NCBI RefSeq assembly: GCF_030433685.1 | Contig: NZ_JAROCF010000001.1 | Location: 1,922,001-1,986,000, forward strand | Source of the DNA: Leifsonia williamsii | Lineage (GTDB): Bacteria; Actinomycetota; Actinomycetes; Actinomycetales; Microbacteriaceae | Direction of reading: 5' to 3' | Length of the DNA stretch: 64,000 nucleotides | Shown here: in pieces, positions 26,594-39,302 of the stretch | Position numbering within the stretch: position 1 is the first letter of the stretch | Layout of the letters: every line of letters starts with the position of its first letter | The notes under the pieces: generated by a model | Seen by the model: the letters and a program-made list of their open reading frames with translations, nothing else | Databases searched by the model: none | What the model was told of the DNA's origin: nothing | Position numbers and translations under genes: made by a program

Positions 26594-29191
26594 TTACGCG
26601 GGGGTCGGGAGGGCCTCGGCGACGGCCTGCTCGGGGGTGAGGTCGCGGCCCTCGGCCATGGCGGCCGCGACCAGGTCGGCGGAGGCGCCGGTGAGCAGCC
26701 GCTCCACGTACTTCTGGTGGAAGGTGAAGATCGGGCCGTTGTGGGTGCCGCTGCGCTCGCGCAGAGCCTGCGCGGCGCCCGCCAGCCGGCCGGCGCGCAC
26801 GGGGTCGCCGGTGAGCGCGGCGACCGCGACCAGACCCTCCAGCCCGTACGCGATGCCCTCGGTGTGACCGAGGGTCGCCGACACGGTGACGCTGCGGACG
26901 AAGTGCTTGCGCGCTTCCTCCACGTCTCCGCGGATCAGACACGTCCAGCCGAGGTGGTACGTGGCGATCCGCTCGCCGACCGCGTCGCCGTCCTTGCGGG
27001 TGAGGGCCAGGCTGCGCTCGAAGTGCTCCTGCGCCTCGTGGATCTTCTGCTGCAGCAGCGCGACCCGGCCGAGCAGCACGTGCGCCATCGACTCGCCCCA
27101 GACGCTGTGGGTCGAGCGGAACAGCTCCAGCGACCGCTCCATCACCTCCCTGGCCCGGGAGGTGTCCGGCCGTTCGCCGGCCATCAGGGCGAGCGCGAGG
27201 GAGATGCGGGCCAGCCCCTCGCCGTCGGCGTCGCCCACGCGGTGGAACAGGTCGGCGCTCTCGGTGAGGTCGGCGGCGACGCTGCCGTCCGGATCCTTCC
27301 AGAACATGATCGTGCGGGTGAAGTACAGCGCGATCGCGCGCGTGTGGTCGCCGAGGGCGTCGCCGGAGGCGAGCGGCTCGTCCATCCAGGTGCGCACCTC
27401 GCCGAGCAGGCCGGTGACCCACCAGTACAGGTAGAGCCGGTAGGCGAGCTCAGCGGCGCGGTCCCAGTCGCGGGAGCCGAGGAGGTGCCGCTCGGCCGCG
27501 CGCAGGTTGTCGCGCTCGTCGCCGAGCCGCTGCATCCACTCCCGCTGGCCGGTGCCCTTGAGGTCCGCCTCGGCGCGCGCGGCAAGGGCGCGGAAGTACT
27601 CGGCGTGGGCGTCGCGGGCGCTGCCGAGGCCGCCCTCCTTCTCCAGCCGCTCGCGGGCGTATTCGCGCACGATGGCCTGCATCGAGAACCGGGCGCGCTC
27701 CTCGCCGTCGTGCTGCTGGCCGACGAGGCTGCTGTCGACGAGCGCGGCGAGGTCGCTGAGCACGTCGTCGCCGTCGTCGCCGACCGCCTCCGCCGCCTCC
27801 AGCGTGAACCCGCCCTCGAAGACGCCGAGCCGGGCGAGCAGGCGGCGCTGGTCGTCGGTGAGCAGCTGCGTGCTCCATTCGATGGTGCGGCGGATGGTCT
27901 GCTGCCGCTCGGGGAGGTCGCGCGACCCTCCCACGAGCACCGACAGCCGCCGGTCGAGGCGGTCCAGCAGGTCGGCGGGGGAGAGCACGCGCACCCGGGC
28001 CGCGGCCAGCTCGATCGCGAGCGGGACGCCGTCGACCGCCGCGCAGACGCCCGCGACGGCGGAGGCGTTCTCGGCGGTGACCTCGAAGTCGGGTTTGACC
28101 GCGTGCGCGCGGTCGACGAACAGGCTCACCGCCGAGTCGTCGCCCAACGGCCCGACCTCGTAGCTCTGCTCGGCGCTGACCCGCAGCAGGGCGCGGCTCG
28201 TGACCAGCACGGCGACGCCGGGGGCCTGGGCGAGCAGCCGGGTGAGCAGCGGCGCGGCGTCGAGGATCTGCTCGAAGTTGTCGAGCACGAGCAGCATCTG
28301 CCGGTCGCGGAGCGCGGTGACGAGGTTGTCCGCCATCGGCGCGTCGCCGGTGTCGCGCACGTCGAGCGCCTGCGCGATGCGGTTGGGGACGCGGTCCGGC
28401 TCCTGCACCGCCGAGAGGTCGACGAAGACGGCGCCGTCGTCGAAGCCCGGGGCGGCGGCTCGCGCGGCGGCGATGGCGAGGCGGCTCTTGCCGATGCCTC
28501 CCGGGCCGACCAGGGTGAGGAAGCGGGTGCCGGACTGCAGCATCCCGCGGATCACCGCGACGTCGGCCTCCCGGCCCACGAGTCCGGTGAGCGGGGTGGG
28601 CAGGCGCACGGGGTCGGCGAGGCCGTCGGCGTCGGCACCGCCTCCACCCGGGCCGCCGTGCGGGCTCACCGCGGGCGTCGGCCCGGTCGCGGCGGCGAGG
28701 AGGGCGGCCCTGCTCTGGTCGAAGCGCTCGGCGAGCAGGGTGGCGAGGTCGGCCTCCAGCAGCCGCGCCAGCTCCCTGGCGGTCTCGAAGTACTTGTAGG
28801 CGGCGCGGTCGTCTTCGCGGATGCGGCCGATCAGCTCGGTCAGCCGCGGCTCGCGATGGCTGGCCGGGCTCTTGATGTAGAGCAGCCGCGGGAGGTCGTC
28901 AGGGCACAGGTTGTACTCGTCCTCGAGGCCCGACACCGTCTCTTCGGGGGCGACCCAGCCGTACTTCTCCCAGTACAGGCCGACGAAGACGTCGCTCTGG
29001 TCGAGGTAGGCACGGTAGAGCTCGCGCGGCGGATGCGGCCGTGCGCCGAGCTCGAACATGACGGGGGCGAGGTGGAGGCGCTCGATGGCGGTCCGCGCGG
29101 CTCGGCGCTCGTCGGCGAGCTCCTGCAGCGTGGAGGAGACGAAGACCCGTAACCGCTGATCGGGTGTGCGGATTACGTGAGGGGCACTCAT
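26594..29191 (-). CDS. DUF4062 - STAND NTPase - TPR protein
   Basis: About 865 residues, cytoplasmic. Domains in order: DUF4062 (residues about 12-105, LRVFVSSTLQELADERRA ... SDVFVGLYWEKYGW), an NB-ARC-like STAND ATPase with Walker A GPGGIGKS at about 229-236, Walker B MLLVLDNFEQ and the GVPLAIELAAARV motif, a winged-helix part, then TPR-like helices to the end. STAND proteins act as signal-triggered oligomeric switches; similar architectures occur in regulators and in candidate defence proteins. No DNA-binding HTH is seen. Start is ATG 29191 or 29200. It stands alone between two divergent/convergent neighbours. Confidence 0.85.
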   Translation of the reverse strand: MSAPHVIRTPDQRLRVFVSSTLQELADERRAARTAIERLHLAPVMFELGARPHPPRELYRAYLDQSDVFVGLYWEKYGWVAPEETVSGLEDEYNLCPDDLPRLLYIKSPASHREPRLTELIGRIREDDRAAYKYFETARELARLLEADLATLLAERFDQSRAALLAAATGPTPAVSPHGGPGGGGADADGLADPVRLPTPLTGLVGREADVAVIRGMLQSGTRFLTLVGPGGIGKSRLAIAAARAAAPGFDDGAVFVDLSAVQEPDRVPNRIAQALDVRDTGDAPMADNLVTALRDRQMLLVLDNFEQILDAAPLLTRLLAQAPGVAVLVTSRALLRVSAEQSYEVGPLGDDSAVSLFVDRAHAVKPDFEVTAENASAVAGVCAAVDGVPLAIELAAARVRVLSPADLLDRLDRRLSVLVGGSRDLPERQQTIRRTIEWSTQLLTDDQRRLLARLGVFEGGFTLEAAEAVGDDGDDVLSDLAALVDSSLVGQQHDGEERARFSMQAIVREYARERLEKEGGLGSARDAHAEYFRALAARAEADLKGTGQREWMQRLGDERDNLRAAERHLLGSRDWDRAAELAYRLYLYWWVTGLLGEVRTWMDEPLASGDALGDHTRAIALYFTRTIMFWKDPDGSVAADLTESADLFHRVGDADGEGLARISLALALMAGERPDTSRAREVMERSLELFRSTHSVWGESMAHVLLGRVALLQQKIHEAQEHFERSLALTRKDGDAVGERIATYHLGWTCLIRGDVEEARKHFVRSVTVSATLGHTEGIAYGLEGLVAVAALTGDPVRAGRLAGAAQALRERSGTHNGPIFTFHQKYVERLLTGASADLVAAAMAEGRDLTPEQAVAEALPTPA

Positions 29192-29311
29192 GTTATGCAT
29201 TTTCTTGCGTTCGCATGCGGTTGTACAAGGGCGGAGCGCGCACTCATACCACTGGTGGGCCCGGAATCAAGGCTCTTCAGGCATTCCCCCGGCCGCGGCA
29301 CAGTGGCGAGC

Positions 29312-29663: not shown

Positions 29664-29720
29664 CGAGTACACGAAAAATGCGCGGATTCGTTGCGAATCC
29701 GCGCATTTTTGGTGTACTCG
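29664..29720. terminator. Long near-perfect hairpin, bidirectional terminator
   Basis: Inner arms AAAAATGCGCGGATTCG (29674-29690) and its exact complement (29694-29710) with a TTG loop, then one G/G mismatch, then outer arms CGAGTACAC (29664-29672) and GTGTACTCG (29712-29720). The 5-nt A and T runs give T-tracts on both strands. It lies between convergent genes and shares the CGAGTAC ends with the repeats at 26530 and 37831. Confidence 0.85.
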
Positions 29721-29742: not shown

Positions 29743-30390
29743 CTACATGTCGCGGTAGCGGCGGGCGGCGGCGAGGGCCTCGCGGAGCTGGGCGACGTCC
29801 ATGCGGTGCACGTAGCCGGGAGTGTCGCGCTGGATGCGCCAGCCCTCGGCGAGCGGGCCGATGTCGAGCGGGTCGAAGCCGAACTGGTCGATCAGCTCGG
29901 CGACGCGGGCGCGGGCCTCCTCGTCGTCGCCGGCGACGATCAGCGCGCGGCGGCCGGGCGTCCCCGAGGACTGGCCCTCGGTCGTGAGCGCGGCGGCGCC
30001 GATGTGGTTGAACGCCTTCACGACCTTCGAGGTCGGGAGGATCGCCTGCAGCCGCTCGGCGACGGTCGTGGACTCGTCGTCCAGCTCGGCGATGTGGCCG
30101 TCGCGCTGCGGGTAGTAGTTGTTGGTGTCGATCACGATCTTGCCCGCCAGCTCGGCCACGGGGAGGGTCGCCTCGGCGGCGAGCGGTGTCGTGACGACGA
30201 CGAGGTCGCCGGCGGCGGCGGCCTCGGCGGGCGTGGCCGCGCGGGCCTGCGGGCCGAGCTCGGCGACGAGGCCTGCGAGGGTCTCGGGGCCGCGCGAGTT
30301 GCTCAGCACGACGTCGTAGCCGTGCGCGACGGCGAGGCGCGCGAGCTGGGAGCCGATGTGTCCAGAACCGATGAGTCCGATGGTTGCCAT
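29743..30390 (-). CDS. NADPH-dependent F420 reductase-like protein
   Basis: A 215-residue Rossmann protein of the F420:NADP oxidoreductase / NAD(P)-binding family. The N-terminal motif is IGLIGSGHIGSQLA with SNSRGPETL (Arg after the second strand, suggesting NADP), then VVVTTPLAAEATLP and KVVKAFNHIGA, all typical of the family. It would shuttle hydride between NADPH and coenzyme F420, used by F420-dependent oxidoreductases in actinobacteria; some members act on other substrates. Monocistronic-looking, GAAAGA site before ATG. Confidence 0.82.
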   Translation of the reverse strand: MATIGLIGSGHIGSQLARLAVAHGYDVVLSNSRGPETLAGLVAELGPQARAATPAEAAAAGDLVVVTTPLAAEATLPVAELAGKIVIDTNNYYPQRDGHIAELDDESTTVAERLQAILPTSKVVKAFNHIGAAALTTEGQSSGTPGRRALIVAGDDEEARARVAELIDQFGFDPLDIGPLAEGWRIQRDTPGYVHRMDVAQLREALAAARRYRDM

Positions 30391-30434: not shown

Positions 30435-31124
30435 TCAGGGCGCGAGGGCGGTGAGGTACGCGGCGTAGCCGTCGGGGGCGCGGCCGGAGAGGCGCGCGGA
30501 GGTGATCACCGGCTGCTCCTCGGAGGCCGCGATGGCCACCCCGGCCGCACGGAGCCGGTCGACCAGGGCGACGTCCTCGCCGGTCGCGAGCGGCTCCATC
30601 CCGCCCACCATGCGGTACGCGCCGGCACGCACGCCGAGGTTGGCGCCGTGCACGTGCCCCAACGCGGCGCCGGGGGAGTGGCGGGCGTGCCAGACGCGGC
30701 GCCGTGGGTCGTCGAGGTCGTCGAGGCGGGGGACCACCGCTCCCACGTAGGCGTCGGCCGTGGCGGCGGCGCGGAGGTGCTCGCGGAGCCAGCGGCGCGG
30801 CACGACGCCGTCGCCGTCGGTCATCGCGATCCACACGGCGTCGTCGGCCTCGGGGGCGCTCGCGAGCGCGGCCTCGATGGCGGCGGCGCGGCTGCGGCCG
30901 ACGCTCTCGTACGAGCGCTCGATCGTGCGGACGAGGGGATGCCGTGCCGCGATCTCCGCCGAGTCGTCGGTGCACGCGTCGAGCAGCAGGACGAGGGACG
31001 TGCGCACCAGCGGCACCGCCGCGCAGGCCCGCTCCAGGGACGTGAGGCAGGCGTCCAGTGTGGCGGCCTCGTCGCGGGCGGGCACGGCGACGACGACGCG
31101 CTGGATGGGCGGGCGGGCGGTCAC
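30435..31124 (-). CDS. Glycosyltransferase family 2
   Basis: A 229-residue GT-A-fold enzyme without membrane spans. VVVAVPARDEAATLDACL at the start is the nucleotide-sugar binding beta-alpha unit; TDGDGVVPRRWL carries the DxD-like metal site; GHVHGANLGVRAGAYRMVGGM and GEDVALVDRL form the acceptor/catalytic region. GTG start overlaps the upstream stop (GTGA). Third gene of a coupled cluster with the deacetylase-methyltransferase and an acyl-CoA dehydrogenase-like gene, implying assembly of a modified glycan or glycolipid. Confidence 0.85.
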   Translation of the reverse strand: MTARPPIQRVVVAVPARDEAATLDACLTSLERACAAVPLVRTSLVLLLDACTDDSAEIAARHPLVRTIERSYESVGRSRAAAIEAALASAPEADDAVWIAMTDGDGVVPRRWLREHLRAAATADAYVGAVVPRLDDLDDPRRRVWHARHSPGAALGHVHGANLGVRAGAYRMVGGMEPLATGEDVALVDRLRAAGVAIAASEEQPVITSARLSGRAPDGYAAYLTALAP

Positions 31125-32446
31125 GCGGTCGCCTCCGGTCGCGAGTCCTCGGGTCGTCGCGGCCCCTCGGGTCGCCGCAGCATCTCGGGTCGCCGCAGCA
31201 CCTCGAGCAGGAACCCCTCGTCGCGGTGCTCGACCACCACCTCCAGGCCGCTGCGCTCCCGGAAGACGCGGTGCGCCTCCACCCCGGACTGCGCGAAGTC
31301 GTCGGCGTGACCGGTCCAGTGGCAGAGCACCACCTCTCCGCCCGGGGCGAGGGAGGCGACGCAGCGGTCGACGGCGTCCCTCCACTCGTCCGCCGCCAGG
31401 TAGTAGGCGACCTCGCTGACGAGCACGAGATCGAAGGGACCCTCCGGCCAGTCGCGCGGCACCCGTGCGCGCTCGACCACGGCCTGCGGGAAGGACGCGA
31501 CCCGTCGGGCCGCCGTCTCGACCGCTGCCGCCGAGGCGTCGACCGCGAGCAGCGCGTCGCAGCGCTCGGCGAGCACGGCGGTCAGCTCCCCGACCGAGCA
31601 GCCGACCTCGAAGGCGCGCCCGTACCGCTCGCGCGGCAGGACGGCGGCGATCAGGGCGCGCTTGCGCCGCTCGTACCAGCGCGAGCGCACCGACCACGGG
31701 TCCTCCCGCTCGCGGTGCAGGCGCTCGAAGTGCTCGTCCAGCGCTGCCCGCTCGGCGAGGATCAGCGCCTCCCGTCCCTCCGCCGCCCGCTGCACGAAGC
31801 CCTCCGCCAGCACGCCGGCGGGGTTCGCCGGGCTGCGCAGCTGGGAGGTGAAGGAGCGCAGCGCCTCCCGCTTGCGCCTCCGCTGCGCCGGGGTCAGCTC
31901 GACCGCCCGCAGCCGCTGCCACGGCACGTCGTCGGGCCGGCCCCACTGCCACAGCCAGACCGGGTACGAGAGCACCGTCTCCCCGCGCTCCTCGGCGGCC
32001 CTGGCCACCTCGCGGCCGAGCGTGCGGTGGTCGCCGTGCCGGTCGCCCGGCCAGGGCGCGAGCAGCAGGCGGGGGCCGGGAGCAGCGTCGAGCACGCGGG
32101 CGATCGCGGCGTGCAGCGTGTCGGCGTGGTGCTTGAGCGCGCCGTCGGGGAGGTGGAGTGGCACCACGCGGGCGTCCGGCAGCCCCAGCACGGCGAGCGC
32201 CTCCGCCAGCTCGTCGAGCCGGGCCGGGTCGTCGCTCGTCGCGGCGACGACCGTGACCTCGACGCCGCGGTCGGCGGCGATCGCGAGCAGGCCGCCGGCG
32301 CCGAGCGTCTCGTCGTCGGGGTGGGCGGAGAACATGATCAGGCGCGGAGGGAGGCCGTCGGGGTCGAACGCGGGCACCGCCTCCCACTCGGGCCGGTCCT
32401 CCCAGTCGCCGGGGGCGGTCACGGCGGTGAACGGGTCGAAGCTCAC
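31121..32446 (-). CDS. PIG-L deacetylase fused to NodS-like SAM methyltransferase
   Basis: A 441-residue two-domain enzyme. Residues about 35-215: PIG-L/LmbE zinc deacetylase with AHPDDETLGAGG and GDRHGDHRTLG (metal ligands H, D, H). Residues about 240-420: class I methyltransferase with motif I AFEVGCSVGELTAVLAE and VLVSEVAYYLAADEW, like NodS N-methyltransferases of Nod-factor synthesis. Deacetylating an N-acetyl sugar and then methylating the amine is a plausible joint reaction. The tail has short repeats (RRPEMLRRPEGPRRPED). GTG 32446 is chosen for the 4-nt overlap with the acyl-CoA dehydrogenase stop; GTG 32449 is the alternative. Confidence 0.87.
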   Translation of the reverse strand: MSFDPFTAVTAPGDWEDRPEWEAVPAFDPDGLPPRLIMFSAHPDDETLGAGGLLAIAADRGVEVTVVAATSDDPARLDELAEALAVLGLPDARVVPLHLPDGALKHHADTLHAAIARVLDAAPGPRLLLAPWPGDRHGDHRTLGREVARAAEERGETVLSYPVWLWQWGRPDDVPWQRLRAVELTPAQRRRKREALRSFTSQLRSPANPAGVLAEGFVQRAAEGREALILAERAALDEHFERLHREREDPWSVRSRWYERRKRALIAAVLPRERYGRAFEVGCSVGELTAVLAERCDALLAVDASAAAVETAARRVASFPQAVVERARVPRDWPEGPFDLVLVSEVAYYLAADEWRDAVDRCVASLAPGGEVVLCHWTGHADDFAQSGVEAHRVFRERSGLEVVVEHRDEGFLLEVLRRPEMLRRPEGPRRPEDSRPEATA

Positions 32447-33564
32447 CACCAGCGGCCGTCCTCGCCCGCAGCGGCGGTGGCGGCGACCTTGGCCGCGAGG
32501 GAGGCGTCGTCGCGGCCCCGGTGGTACTGGCTCACGTACAGCTCGAGGTCGGCGCAGCGGCGGGCGAGAGCGTCGTCGAAGGCGAGCGCGGCCGGTCCGA
32601 GCACGTCGCGCACGGCGGCGAGTGCGGCGACGGCGGCATCCGCGACGACCCCGCGCACGAGGTGGCCGAGCACGGCCCCGTTGTCGCCCGCATCGATGGC
32701 GGCCGCTGCTGCGTCAAGCTGCAGCCGGGCAGAATCGAGGAGGCGGTAGACCTCCCCGACGCGCGCCCCGGTCAGCGCGTCGTCGGGGCGCGCGGAGGCG
32801 CGCTCGACCAGCGCGCGCAGCAGCGGCAGAGAGCCGCCGTACCAGCAGGCGGCCACGCCGATCGCTCCCCAGCGGAACCCGGGCCGCGACAGGTACCAGC
32901 CGGGCGCGCCGACCGGCACGGCGACCGCGCCGTCGAAGCGCAGCGGGCCGCTCGTGACCTCGCGGAGCCCGCGGGCGACCCATTCCGCCGGTTCGGAGGC
33001 GATGGCGGACTGCTGGAGGCGGACGGCGAACATCCTCCGCCCCCCGTCCTCCGTGTGAGCGGTGACGAGGGCGTCGGTGAGCCGGTCGCCGAGGGAGCAC
33101 CACGGTTTGACGCCGTGCAGCGTCCACCGGTCGGCGGCGGGATCGCGTCGCGCCTCGAGCACTGTGCCGGGGGCCTCGGCGGCGAACACGCCCCAGGTCG
33201 TCCCTGTGTCGGCAGCAGGATGGGCGCCGGGAGCGGGATGGGCGCCGGGAGCGGGCTGGGCGCCGGGAGTGGGATGGGCGCCGGGAGCGGGATGCCCCGC
33301 CTCGGCCAGGATCGCGACCGCGTCGAGGTGCGGCTCCAGCACGCGGGCGGCGGTCAGGTCGGTGCGGGCGACCTCCGCGAGCGCGGCGAACCGCTCCGAC
33401 GTCCGGCCCGAGCCGGGGAGAGGAGCGAGCGCACCCGGGTCCACGGCGGCGAGCGCGGCGAGCAGCGGGCCCACCTCGCCCGGGCGGGCCGCGGCGGCGG
33501 CGCCGTACGCGTCGAGCGGAGAGGCGGAGGTGGTGGGCGCCTCGTCGACGCTCGCGCGGGTCAT
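32443..33564 (-). CDS. Acyl-CoA dehydrogenase-like flavoprotein
   Basis: A 373-residue acyl-CoA dehydrogenase-fold protein. Recognisable parts are the beta-domain (TWGVFAAEAPG, LHGVKPWCSLGDRLTDALVTA) and the C-terminal helices (RVGEVYRLLDSARLQLDAAAAAID). It has an odd hexapeptide repeat (PGAHPA units) at about residues 90-115, from a tandem DNA repeat. SD GAGGGA precedes ATG. First gene of the coupled cluster; a catalytic Glu could not be placed, so it may act on a carrier-bound or sugar-linked acyl group, or be non-dehydrogenating. Confidence 0.8.
   Translation of the reverse strand: MTRASVDEAPTTSASPLDAYGAAAAARPGEVGPLLAALAAVDPGALAPLPGSGRTSERFAALAEVARTDLTAARVLEPHLDAVAILAEAGHPAPGAHPTPGAQPAPGAHPAPGAHPAADTGTTWGVFAAEAPGTVLEARRDPAADRWTLHGVKPWCSLGDRLTDALVTAHTEDGGRRMFAVRLQQSAIASEPAEWVARGLREVTSGPLRFDGAVAVPVGAPGWYLSRPGFRWGAIGVAACWYGGSLPLLRALVERASARPDDALTGARVGEVYRLLDSARLQLDAAAAAIDAGDNGAVLGHLVRGVVADAAVAALAAVRDVLGPAALAFDDALARRCADLELYVSQYHRGRDDASLAAKVAATAAAGEDGRWW
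33218..33296. repeat. 18-bp tandem repeat, about 4.4 copies, inside the acyl-CoA dehydrogenase-like gene
   Basis: Unit GGATGGGCGCCGGGAGCG with two variant bases in the third and fourth copies. In frame it encodes repeats of P-G-A-H-P-A on the minus strand, so copy number changes keep the frame. Confidence 0.9.
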
Positions 33565-37913: not shown

Positions 37914-39302
37914 TCAGGCCGTGGCGAAGGCGCCGTCGCGGGCCGCCTCCAGGAAGACCGCGTAGTCGGCCTCGGCCTGGTCGGCGTACGCCACCGACCA
38001 GCGCGTGACCGCGCGCACGAAGGCGTTGCCCCCGCCGAGGTAGCCGGCGATATACGCCGCCTTCGGCGACCGCGCATGCGCACGGGCGAGCACCGCCGCG
38101 CACACCCGCGCGTAGTCGTGGAACTGCGCCCTGTTCATCGCCGCGAGGTCGAACGACGCGTTCCGGTTGCGGAACAACCGCATGTAGAAGCGGAACCTCT
38201 CCGCCGTGAGATAGCCGAGGAACGGGTCGGAGACGGCCTGCAGGATGCGCTGGCACGCCACCACCCGGTAGCCCTGCTCGTCGGGCAGCAGCACAGGGTC
38301 GAGGTAGCCGGGCAGCGGCTGCACCCCGCCGAACCGTTCGACGACGGAGCTGGTCGCCTCCTTCAGCTGGAGGAGCAGCACCTCCTCGACCGGGCCGACC
38401 AGCGCGAGCACGAAGCATCGGGTGCCGACGCTGCCGACGCCGACCACCCGGCGGGCGATGTCGGCGATGCGCAGCTGCGAGAGCAGCAGGGCGACGTTGG
38501 GCGGCACGGTCAGCCGGTAGCGCTCGAACGCGAGCAGCGCCTCGTCGCGGAGCTCCGGCTCCAGCCGGGTGAGGATCGGCGGCTGTTCGACGAACCGGAA
38601 GTCCCCGTCGCCCCCGTCGGTGAGCACCCGGCGGGCGACGCGCTCGCTGGTGCGCTTCTGCGACGAGCGGACCACCTCCGCGATGAGGCGCTCCATGTCC
38701 TCGCTCAGCCGCCTCCGGCGCTCCTGCACCGACGTCGGCGTGAAGTACCGCTCCTGCAGGGGCAGCCGCAGGGCGCGGGCCAGCCAGTCGCGATAGACGC
38801 CCGCGGCGGCGGACACGGTGTCGCGGATGTGGTCGTCGGGCAGCCGCAGCGACCGGCCGGCGAGCACCACGCTCGTGAGCAGCCGCTTCACGTCCCACTC
38901 CCACGGCCCGACGGTCGCCTCGTCGAAGTCGTTGATGTCGAACACCATGGAGCGCTCCGGCGACCGGTAGATGCCGAAGTTCGACAGGTGCGCGTCGCCG
39001 CAGATCACGACCTCGGCGCCGGTGACGGGACCCGCCGCCAGGTCGGCGGCCTGGATGGCGGCCGTGCCGCGGTAGAACGCGAAGGCGTCCGCGCTCATCC
39101 GCTCCACCCGCAGGTCGATCAGGTTCTGCAGGCGCTGCTCGTGCTGCGCCCGCAGGATGCCGATGGGGTCGCGGCCGGGAGGCGGCGAATAGTCGCCGTG
39201 CGCCGAGCGCGGCAGGTCGGCGCGGCGATCGTGCCCCGCCTCCCGCAGCTCGGCCTCCAGCAGGGGGCTCTCGGCGTTGGCGGGAACGGCTTGGGCACTC
39301 AT
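37914..39302 (-). CDS. DUF2252 family kinase-fold protein
   Basis: A 462-residue cytoplasmic protein of the DUF2252 family, whose core resembles aminoglycoside-phosphotransferase/HipA-like kinases. The catalytic-loop-like motif is CGDAHLSNFGIY (D and N), and the metal-binding acid is in VFDINDFDEA. Other conserved blocks: FYRGTAAIQAADLA and EWDVKRLLTS. Substrate unknown. SD GAGGAGGT lies 7 nt before the ATG. Confidence 0.87.
   Translation of the reverse strand: MSAQAVPANAESPLLEAELREAGHDRRADLPRSAHGDYSPPPGRDPIGILRAQHEQRLQNLIDLRVERMSADAFAFYRGTAAIQAADLAAGPVTGAEVVICGDAHLSNFGIYRSPERSMVFDINDFDEATVGPWEWDVKRLLTSVVLAGRSLRLPDDHIRDTVSAAAGVYRDWLARALRLPLQERYFTPTSVQERRRRLSEDMERLIAEVVRSSQKRTSERVARRVLTDGGDGDFRFVEQPPILTRLEPELRDEALLAFERYRLTVPPNVALLLSQLRIADIARRVVGVGSVGTRCFVLALVGPVEEVLLLQLKEATSSVVERFGGVQPLPGYLDPVLLPDEQGYRVVACQRILQAVSDPFLGYLTAERFRFYMRLFRNRNASFDLAAMNRAQFHDYARVCAAVLARAHARSPKAAYIAGYLGGGNAFVRAVTRWSVAYADQAEADYAVFLEAARDGAFATA

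Follow-up and report, generated by a model that had tools for sequence, protein, structure and literature searches.

What pathway could draw on an acyl-CoA dehydrogenase (ACAD)-like protein, a deacetylase fused to a methyltransferase (MT) and a glycosyltransferase (GT)? The question is raised by three overlapping genes of Leifsonia williamsii in the window, i.e., the whole 64-kb stretch of DNA analyzed. The features are:

33564-32443, minus strand: ACAD-like gene, 373 aa, ATG start
32449-31121, minus strand: PIG-L/MT fusion gene, 442 aa, GTG start
31124-30435, minus strand: GT2 glycosyltransferase gene, 229 aa, GTG start
32443..32449, minus strand: overlap of ACAD stop and fusion start, reads GTGGTGA
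31121..31124, minus strand: overlap of fusion stop and GT start, reads GTGA

Coordinates, strand and both junctions were checked and bear out the first-pass annotation, which had described three genes coupled by overlaps. With the first GTG as start, the ACAD/fusion genes overlap by 7 bases; with the second, the overlap is GTGA. The first is favored because homologues begin with MVxFD. For comparison, 80 related actinobacterial loci were used, which are the best 80 of at least 305 and were thus picked for likeness to the fusion. An ATGA or GTGA context is present at the ACAD stop in 74 of the 79 scored among these best 80. A synteny survey, also proposed in the first pass, shows the order ACAD-PIG-L-MT-GT in 77 of the best 80; the exceptions have the GT upstream (L055), lack the ACAD gene (L064) or lack the GT gene on a short contig (L014). 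The F420_oxidored-type gene downstream (29743-30390) is present in 0 of the best 80 loci and was rejected as a member of the operon.

Both domains of the fusion pass their Pfam cut-offs, in agreement with the earlier reading of a deacetylase (AHPDDE) joined to a NodS-like MT. PIG-L (PF02585) scores 66.9 bits against a cut-off of 28.2 and matches residues 39-151; the NodS-type SAM methyltransferase part covers approximately residues 236-420, where NodS (PF05401) scores 55.4 bits against 24. The best NCBIfam model is NodS at 66.8 bits, which misses the equivalog cut-off of 300. The AHPDDE motif and the distal D/H residues are unchanged across 17 aligned fusions: H43, D45, D46, E47, D136, H138, D140 and H141 are invariant in the 17 rows and conserved in 90-91 of 91 loci. 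Metal ligands of PIG-L are given in a passage of PMC4101496 as His49/Asp52/His157. The solved structure nearest to the MT domain by sequence is PDB 4ISC, 'Methyltransferase' (E 2.6e-42), but this is a free-standing 164-residue chain, unlike the fused domain of the window. Fusions of this kind have a name in NCBI annotation, 'bifunctional PIG-L family deacetylase/class I SAM-dependent methyltransferase'. This existing name was absent from the first-pass annotation, as were the breadth of the module and its company of stress genes.

The four domains are not confined to the actinobacterial loci. Matches to all four are found in 13 of 17 loci from the plasmid collection, in Pseudomonadota, Deinococcota and Actinomycetota, and also in a Nostoc plasmid. 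The four activities occur together in at least four phyla: Actinomycetota, Pseudomonadota, Deinococcota and Cyanobacteriota. Distances between loci, taken for each of the four domains, correlate with one another at r of 0.79-0.86 (91 loci with all four, the species tree being ignored). The four-part module and its conservation are directly observed.

PIG-L is missing from 13 loci. In 12 of these 13, all Rubrobacter-type, there is a CE4 deacetylase, which is unrelated to PIG-L; in locus L164 the GT, ACAD and MT are detected, and PIG-L and CE4 are both undetected. The CE4 HMM, applied to 99 further loci, finds none at E 1e-10. The Pfam model Polysacc_deac_1 scores 73-92 bits against 23.1 on all six Rubrobacter-type CE4 genes tested. 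NodB is the best NCBIfam model in 3 of 3 tested, with 110-116 bits, which misses the equivalog cut-off of 240, and the CE4 deacetylase is approximately 31-34% identical to NodB. Peptidoglycan deacetylases are also CE4 relatives. A reductase-like gene is present in 10 of the 12 CE4-type loci, one member being typed as ferredoxin-NAD reductase-like.

This displacement of PIG-L by an unrelated NodB-like enzyme is observed directly. It supports amino-sugar de-N-acetylation, a sharp chemical prediction, and through it the analogy with NodC/NodB/NodS; it is new here and the strongest support for a de-N-acetylase working with a NodS-type MT and a GT. The first-pass annotation had drawn that analogy and had suggested that the ACAD-like protein may act on an acyl chain. 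The CE4 displacement and the Pfam NodS match uphold its glycosyltransferase, amino-sugar de-N-acetylase and NodS-type MT; the acyl-chain part is not supported (see below). In a tree of the MT domains, which covers 22 of the 25 quartet rows selected, five NodS proteins (four annotated, one from a nodABC-nodU cluster) are placed beside the CE4-type MTs. The fork that unites them is weakly supported (82/71), with a long NodS branch and two very long outgroups. This placement is suggestive of an origin of NodS in this MT family; if NodS does derive from it, the family would hold a candidate ancestor of the Nod-factor N-methyltransferase.

A PIG-L deacetylase following a GT is also the pattern of low-molecular-weight thiols: in the bacillithiol and mycothiol pathways a glycosyltransferase step precedes a PIG-L/LmbE deacetylase. 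The module could be of this type and possibly stand in for a missing MshB, since MshC and Mca pass their cut-offs in this genome and no protein passes that of MshB, and BshB1 is the top PIG-L-type NCBIfam model for the fusion. However, its 51.9 bits are below the BshB1 cut-off of 182.5, and a mycothiol deacetylase identity was rejected by score, the fusion having 22.5 bits against an MshB cut-off of 224.35. Mca itself scores 191.5 bits for MshB and may double as MshB, the Rubrobacter-type loci replace PIG-L by CE4, and some phyla that carry the module are not known for mycothiol. A thiol-type pathway is most improbable.

The ACAD-like protein of the window has the ACAD fold and a KPWCS flavin-region motif; both Pfam ACAD models stay under their cut-offs, at 20.7 bits against 22.4 and 19.8 bits against 33.3. 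The catalytic Glu is missing: in a comparison with the canonical ACADs L134-L136 from this genome, Tyr347 occupies the column of their catalytic Glu. Three further control frames, L133, L137 and L138, were wrongly chosen and left aside. An acid stands at this YEGT-type position in 7 of 88 loci, Asp in five and Glu in two, and the Gln that precedes the position (Gln346 in the window) is found in 88/88 ungapped loci, three of the 91 being without this segment. At a second helix position, which we take to be the alternative catalytic site of acyl-CoA dehydrogenases, the window has Gly233; Gly is present in 90/90 ungapped PIG-L-type loci and an acid in 0/90. Rubrobacter-type copies have Asp at this position in 6/6 aligned.

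The invariant Gln beside the site and the absence of a conserved catalytic Glu make action on an acyl chain doubtful. A genuine acyl-CoA dehydrogenase is disfavored, given a window protein with no acid at either catalytic position and Pfam ACAD scores below cut-off. It would introduce a double bond into the acyl chain of an N-acylated amino-sugar lipid, in line with the acyl-chain role that the first-pass annotation suggested, but no acyltransferase or acyl carrier was seen in nine recurrent neighbor clusters read by eye, with Pfam on two. The seven acidic positions and the Asp of the Rubrobacter-type copies leave room for a dehydrogenase role, which we nevertheless consider very unlikely. A role as a flavin-dependent oxygenase or oxidase is more likely, and it is likelier that the protein oxidizes a glycoside than that it acts on an acyl chain.

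KijD3 and DnmZ are ACAD-fold amino-sugar N-oxygenases (nitrososynthases) of antibiotic sugar pathways. Both are among the Foldseek matches of the window protein, and KijD3 is the top match (1.4e-11), with ordinary ACADs nearly equal; KijD3 is not among the 50 VIA-align rows listed. Oxygenases and dehydrogenases are not told apart by comparing whole folds. These matches would also suit a specialized, secreted natural product with an amino sugar, antibiotic- or signal-like. A small set of genes kept fixed in four phyla, the lack of a scaffold synthase in the neighbor clusters read and the company of stress genes argue against such a product, which is highly improbable.

The third protein is a GT2 with a GT-A fold, modeled as a compact globular protein of 229 aa. 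Glycos_transf_2 (PF00535) scores 40.8 bits against 23.3 in Pfam, with five extra N-terminal residues in the query. Its GT-A neighbors are generic and include TarS, TarP, WrtF and heparosan synthase. These wall and capsule enzymes are in line with modification of the envelope, where the GT would decorate a surface glycan or glycolipid, deacetylation and N-methylation would change its charge, and the stress link would reflect envelope remodeling. The peptidoglycan deacetylases related to CE4 fit this as well, as do a further GT and a UDP-galactopyranose mutase near two Deinococcus loci. Two points speak weakly against it: the compact GT model, and the nine neighbor clusters read by eye, in which no flippase, polymerase or carrier-lipid transferase was seen. 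Envelope modification is unlikely.

Stress genes are enriched around the module. At a distance of up to 10 kb, catalase is found in 8 of 52 genomes, where 0.29 would be expected, and ferritin/Dps in 3 of 52 (expected 0.37); the Lyase_1 control is found in 0 of 52 (expected 0.70, with 150 places used, 201 by table). The 52 genomes remain from 54 matching ones after removal of G139 and G267, the weakest two, for which the listed match covers the MT part only; G217, G237, G279 and G299 were kept although their listed match is also the MT part only. Among the best 80 of at least 305 actinobacterial loci, Dps is near 19 (expected 0.45), Lyase_1 near none (expected 1.07) and catalase near one (expected 0.33), so the catalase enrichment rests on the 52-genome set. 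All these statistics ignore kinship and assume uniform gene positions and rounded genome sizes. Trehalose genes flank the module in Comamonas (otsA-ACAD-PIG-L-MT-GT-otsB) and adjoin it in Legionella lytica (otsB-GH65-PIG-L-MT-GT-ACAD). In seven of the 14 annotated named loci, the displayed stretch contains no gene for catalase, Dps or trehalose. In the window there is none of this genome's catalase or ferritin/Dps genes, and a scan of nine flanking proteins (24.9-39.3 kb) gave no trehalose enzyme. In Acinetobacter baumannii, Table 2 of PMC5660220 shows ACICU_02432-02435 down 31- to 62-fold, with otsAB and a catalase also lowered, in a contrast of colistin-dependent mutants with their parents and not of stressed with unstressed cells.

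We infer substrate, step order, flavin chemistry, product and role as follows. The GT2 would most likely move an N-acetylated amino sugar (GlcNAc-type) onto an acceptor, the PIG-L domain would take off the N-acetyl group, the NodS-type domain would methylate the resulting free amine, and the ACAD-fold flavoprotein would oxidize the glycoside. To such a stress-associated module, giving an N-methylated and possibly N-oxidized amino-sugar conjugate made alongside catalase, Dps and trehalose, we give roughly even credence. That one fixed four-enzyme set recurs in at least four phyla, and often sits close to genes for catalase, Dps or trehalose, suggests a shared stress metabolite. A wider joint reading is quite unlikely: at least four phyla would use stress metabolites of a new class, namely N-methylated and N-oxidized (hydroxylamine- or nitrone-like, radical-trapping) amino-sugar glycosides made with catalase, Dps and trehalose, and the NodS of rhizobia, perhaps along with a deacetylase of NodB type, would have been recruited from this older pathway.

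In the literature, as titles, abstract openings and some passages with few subscription papers, no function or product was found for the gene set, nor an activity measurement for any of its enzymes. Among known systems, a close one is ACICU_02432-02435, where the four functions recur in identical order, but PIG-L and MT are separate genes. It lies beside a BLUF photoreceptor and is noted by annotation, with no function assigned in the passages concerned (PMC5660220, PMC6240043, PMC9020721).

KijD3 and DnmZ resemble the window ACAD-like protein in fold and in having an amine-exposing step alongside, but sequence searches of the PDB did not retrieve them. BshA/BshB (bacillithiol) and MshA/MshB (mycothiol) share the GT followed by a PIG-L/LmbE deacetylase, whereas the module adds an N-methyltransferase and an ACAD and misses the BshB1 and MshB cut-offs. 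The Nod-factor system, compared through the nodABC-MT-nodU cluster of Bradyrhizobium guangxiense (L175), has in common with the module a GT, a de-N-acetylase and a NodS-type N-methyltransferase, although the module proteins miss both the NodS and NodB equivalog cut-offs. In contrast to the Nod system, the module mostly has PIG-L and not CE4, has a 229-aa GT and not NodC, adds an ACAD-like flavoprotein, and has stress genes and not nod genes as neighbors.

The coordinates given by the first-pass annotation for the three genes are confirmed. All are minus-strand genes in a genome of 3.89 Mb (G000), and among named organisms the nearest protein relatives belong to Leifsonia.

33564–32443, minus strand: acyl-CoA-dehydrogenase-like (ACAD) gene
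32449–31121, minus strand: fusion of a PIG-L de-N-acetylase and a NodS-type methyltransferase (MT)
31124–30435, minus strand: GT2 glycosyltransferase (GT)

The junctions are GTGGTGA (ACAD/fusion) and GTGA (fusion/GT). The fusion exceeds the Pfam cut-offs for the PIG-L and NodS models and the GT that for the GT2 model; the ACAD-like protein is below cut-off for the Pfam ACAD models. Such fusions already carry the NCBI name "bifunctional PIG-L family deacetylase/class I SAM-dependent methyltransferase". The GT is modeled as a compact GT-A structure (pLDDT 95.2), with fold neighbors whose donors are UDP-GlcNAc, GDP-fucose and others. Two 18-bp tandem repeats are present in the reading frames. That at 33210–33294 (4.7 copies) codes for a PGAHPA-type linker in the ACAD-like protein, a low-confidence loop of the predicted model (residues about 90–120); that at 31138–31205 encodes the extreme C-terminus of the fusion, an RRPE-type tail immediately before the GT start.

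A palindromic intergenic repeat is located at positions 29665–29719. A 61-bp query of it gives 10 genome matches, the query itself counted, some of which are inverted pairs. The window also encodes an 868 aa DUF4062-NB-ARC-TPR (STAND-type) protein (26594–29200) and a DUF2252 protein (37914–39302, 410 bits). Elsewhere in the genome a PIG-L-type deacetylase is fused to a response-regulator receiver domain (locus L001, C1:2195861); MshC and Mca are over cut-off, and no protein of the genome reaches the MshB cut-off.

Genome contigs were scanned with an alignment of 17 fusions and loci were scored by HMMs of the four domains. The set used consists of the best 80 of 305 confirmed stretches and is thus selected for likeness to the fusion. 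Among these 80, the order ACAD-PIG-L-MT-GT is kept in 77 (exceptions L014, L055 and L064) and PIG-L and MT form a single open frame in 79. Within the Actinomycetales 54 of 159 genomes match; phylum-wide, matches at 1e-20 are present in 29 of 198, though in some of them through PIG-L alone. Of 17 loci taken first from a plasmid collection (L114–L130), 13 match all four domains; where these quartets are annotated, PIG-L and MT are separate genes. L127 has no GT, the annotated ACAD of L129 gives no HMM match, and two loci are in polysaccharide clusters, L123 with PIG-L alone and L130 with PIG-L and a GT2 match about 4 kb off. A Nostoc plasmid has all four, with the GT on the opposite strand. Pairwise distances of the four domains correlate (r 0.79–0.86, 91 loci, uncorrected for species relationships), as co-inheritance would give.

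In three loci on Deinococcus plasmids (L115 5608–7971, L167 1145–3484, L168 4851–7199) the ACAD-like protein is extended at its N-terminus by some 385 aa, which on visual inspection resemble a family-1 glycosidase; the L115 extension shows no Pfam match at E 0.01 and no PDB sequence match. In L167 (Deinococcus radiodurans) the module seems broken up, with an opposite-strand helicase gene separating PIG-L from MT and no GT annotated within the 14.5 kb shown.

Neighboring genes were compared with expectations that presume uniform positions and rounded genome sizes, related genomes being counted though non-independent. A catalase gene is within 10 kb in 8 of 52 matching genomes (expected 0.29; four families) and ferritin/Dps in three (expected 0.37), and the control Lyase_1 is in none of the 52 (expected 0.70, from 150 listed places). 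In the best 80 of 305 loci, Dps is present in 19 (expected 0.45), catalase in one (0.33) and Lyase_1 in none (1.07). Two queries, one from L008 identified by eye and one from L115 annotated as Dps, give concordant Dps matches. The 14 annotated, named quartet loci (L114–L118, L120–L122, L124–L129) were read without a null; in seven the stretch includes a gene for catalase, Dps or trehalose metabolism, and in the other seven it includes none of these. Catalase is found in Acinetobacter, Paracoccus and two related Sulfitobacter, and Dps in Deinococcus. The gene order is otsA-ACAD-PIG-L-MT-GT-otsB in Comamonas and otsB-GH65-PIG-L-MT-GT-ACAD in Legionella lytica, where the ACAD is annotated "hypothetical". 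According to PMC5660220 (section 8), ACICU_02432–02435 (GT, MT, LmbE and ACAD-related) are down 31- to 62-fold in colistin-dependent A. baumannii mutants, alongside a catalase and both the synthase and the phosphatase for trehalose-6-phosphate. Gene order and annotation are our grounds for identifying these genes with the module; in an A. baumannii record (L119) the HMMs detect each of the four domains. Excerpts of PMC6240043 and PMC9020721 place the four-gene set next to a BLUF photoreceptor gene and give no function. The 64-kb window has no catalase or ferritin/Dps gene, which counts against inferring stress from this locus alone.

As regards the deacetylase DISPLACEMENT, some phylum-level matches have ACAD and MT without PIG-L. 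PIG-L is present in four and absent from 12 of 16 stretches of 9–16 kb; with L103, a contig end from the phylum-level scan, there are 13 loci without it. A CE4 deacetylase is present in 12 of these, from 11 genomes, 10 of which belong to one family; in the other, L164, neither PIG-L nor CE4 was detected. Of the 12 CE4-type loci, 11 have ACAD and 10 a Pyr_redox_2 protein, one of which was typed as similar to ferredoxin-NAD(+) reductases; L154 lacks ACAD, GT and reductase. At E 1e-10 this CE4 is in none of 99 other loci (80 + 17 + L149 + L099; two are not quartets). The annotated order on a Rubrobacter indicoceani plasmid is polysaccharide deacetylase, acyl-CoA dehydrogenase, SAM methyltransferase, FAD oxidoreductase, glycosyltransferase. 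The best evidence for assigning de-N-acetylation of an amino sugar to this step is the occurrence of two unrelated deacetylase folds, PIG-L and CE4, at the same place in the module.

We give about even chances to a stress-associated pathway that leads to an N-methylated amino-sugar conjugate and includes a flavoenzyme step. Action of the ACAD on an acyl chain, proposed in the first-pass annotation, is unsupported. That annotation's analogy to NodC, NodB and NodS (GT, N-deacetylase and N-methyltransferase) is better supported than could have been known then. For the fusion (METHYLTRANSFERASE) the top NCBIfam model is NodS, at 66.8 bits vs a cut-off of 300, and the nearest solved structures are 4ISC (E 2.6e-42) and, second, NodS 3OFJ (E 6e-14). 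In a 34-row tree five NodS proteins form one group adjoining the CE4-type MTs (weak support, 82/71; long NodS branch), and NodS may possibly have descended from this MT family. NodB is the best NCBIfam model for the three CE4 proteins tested (110–116 bits, under the equivalog cut-off of 240); their CE4 motifs seem intact by eye, and they have 31–34% identity to a NodB.
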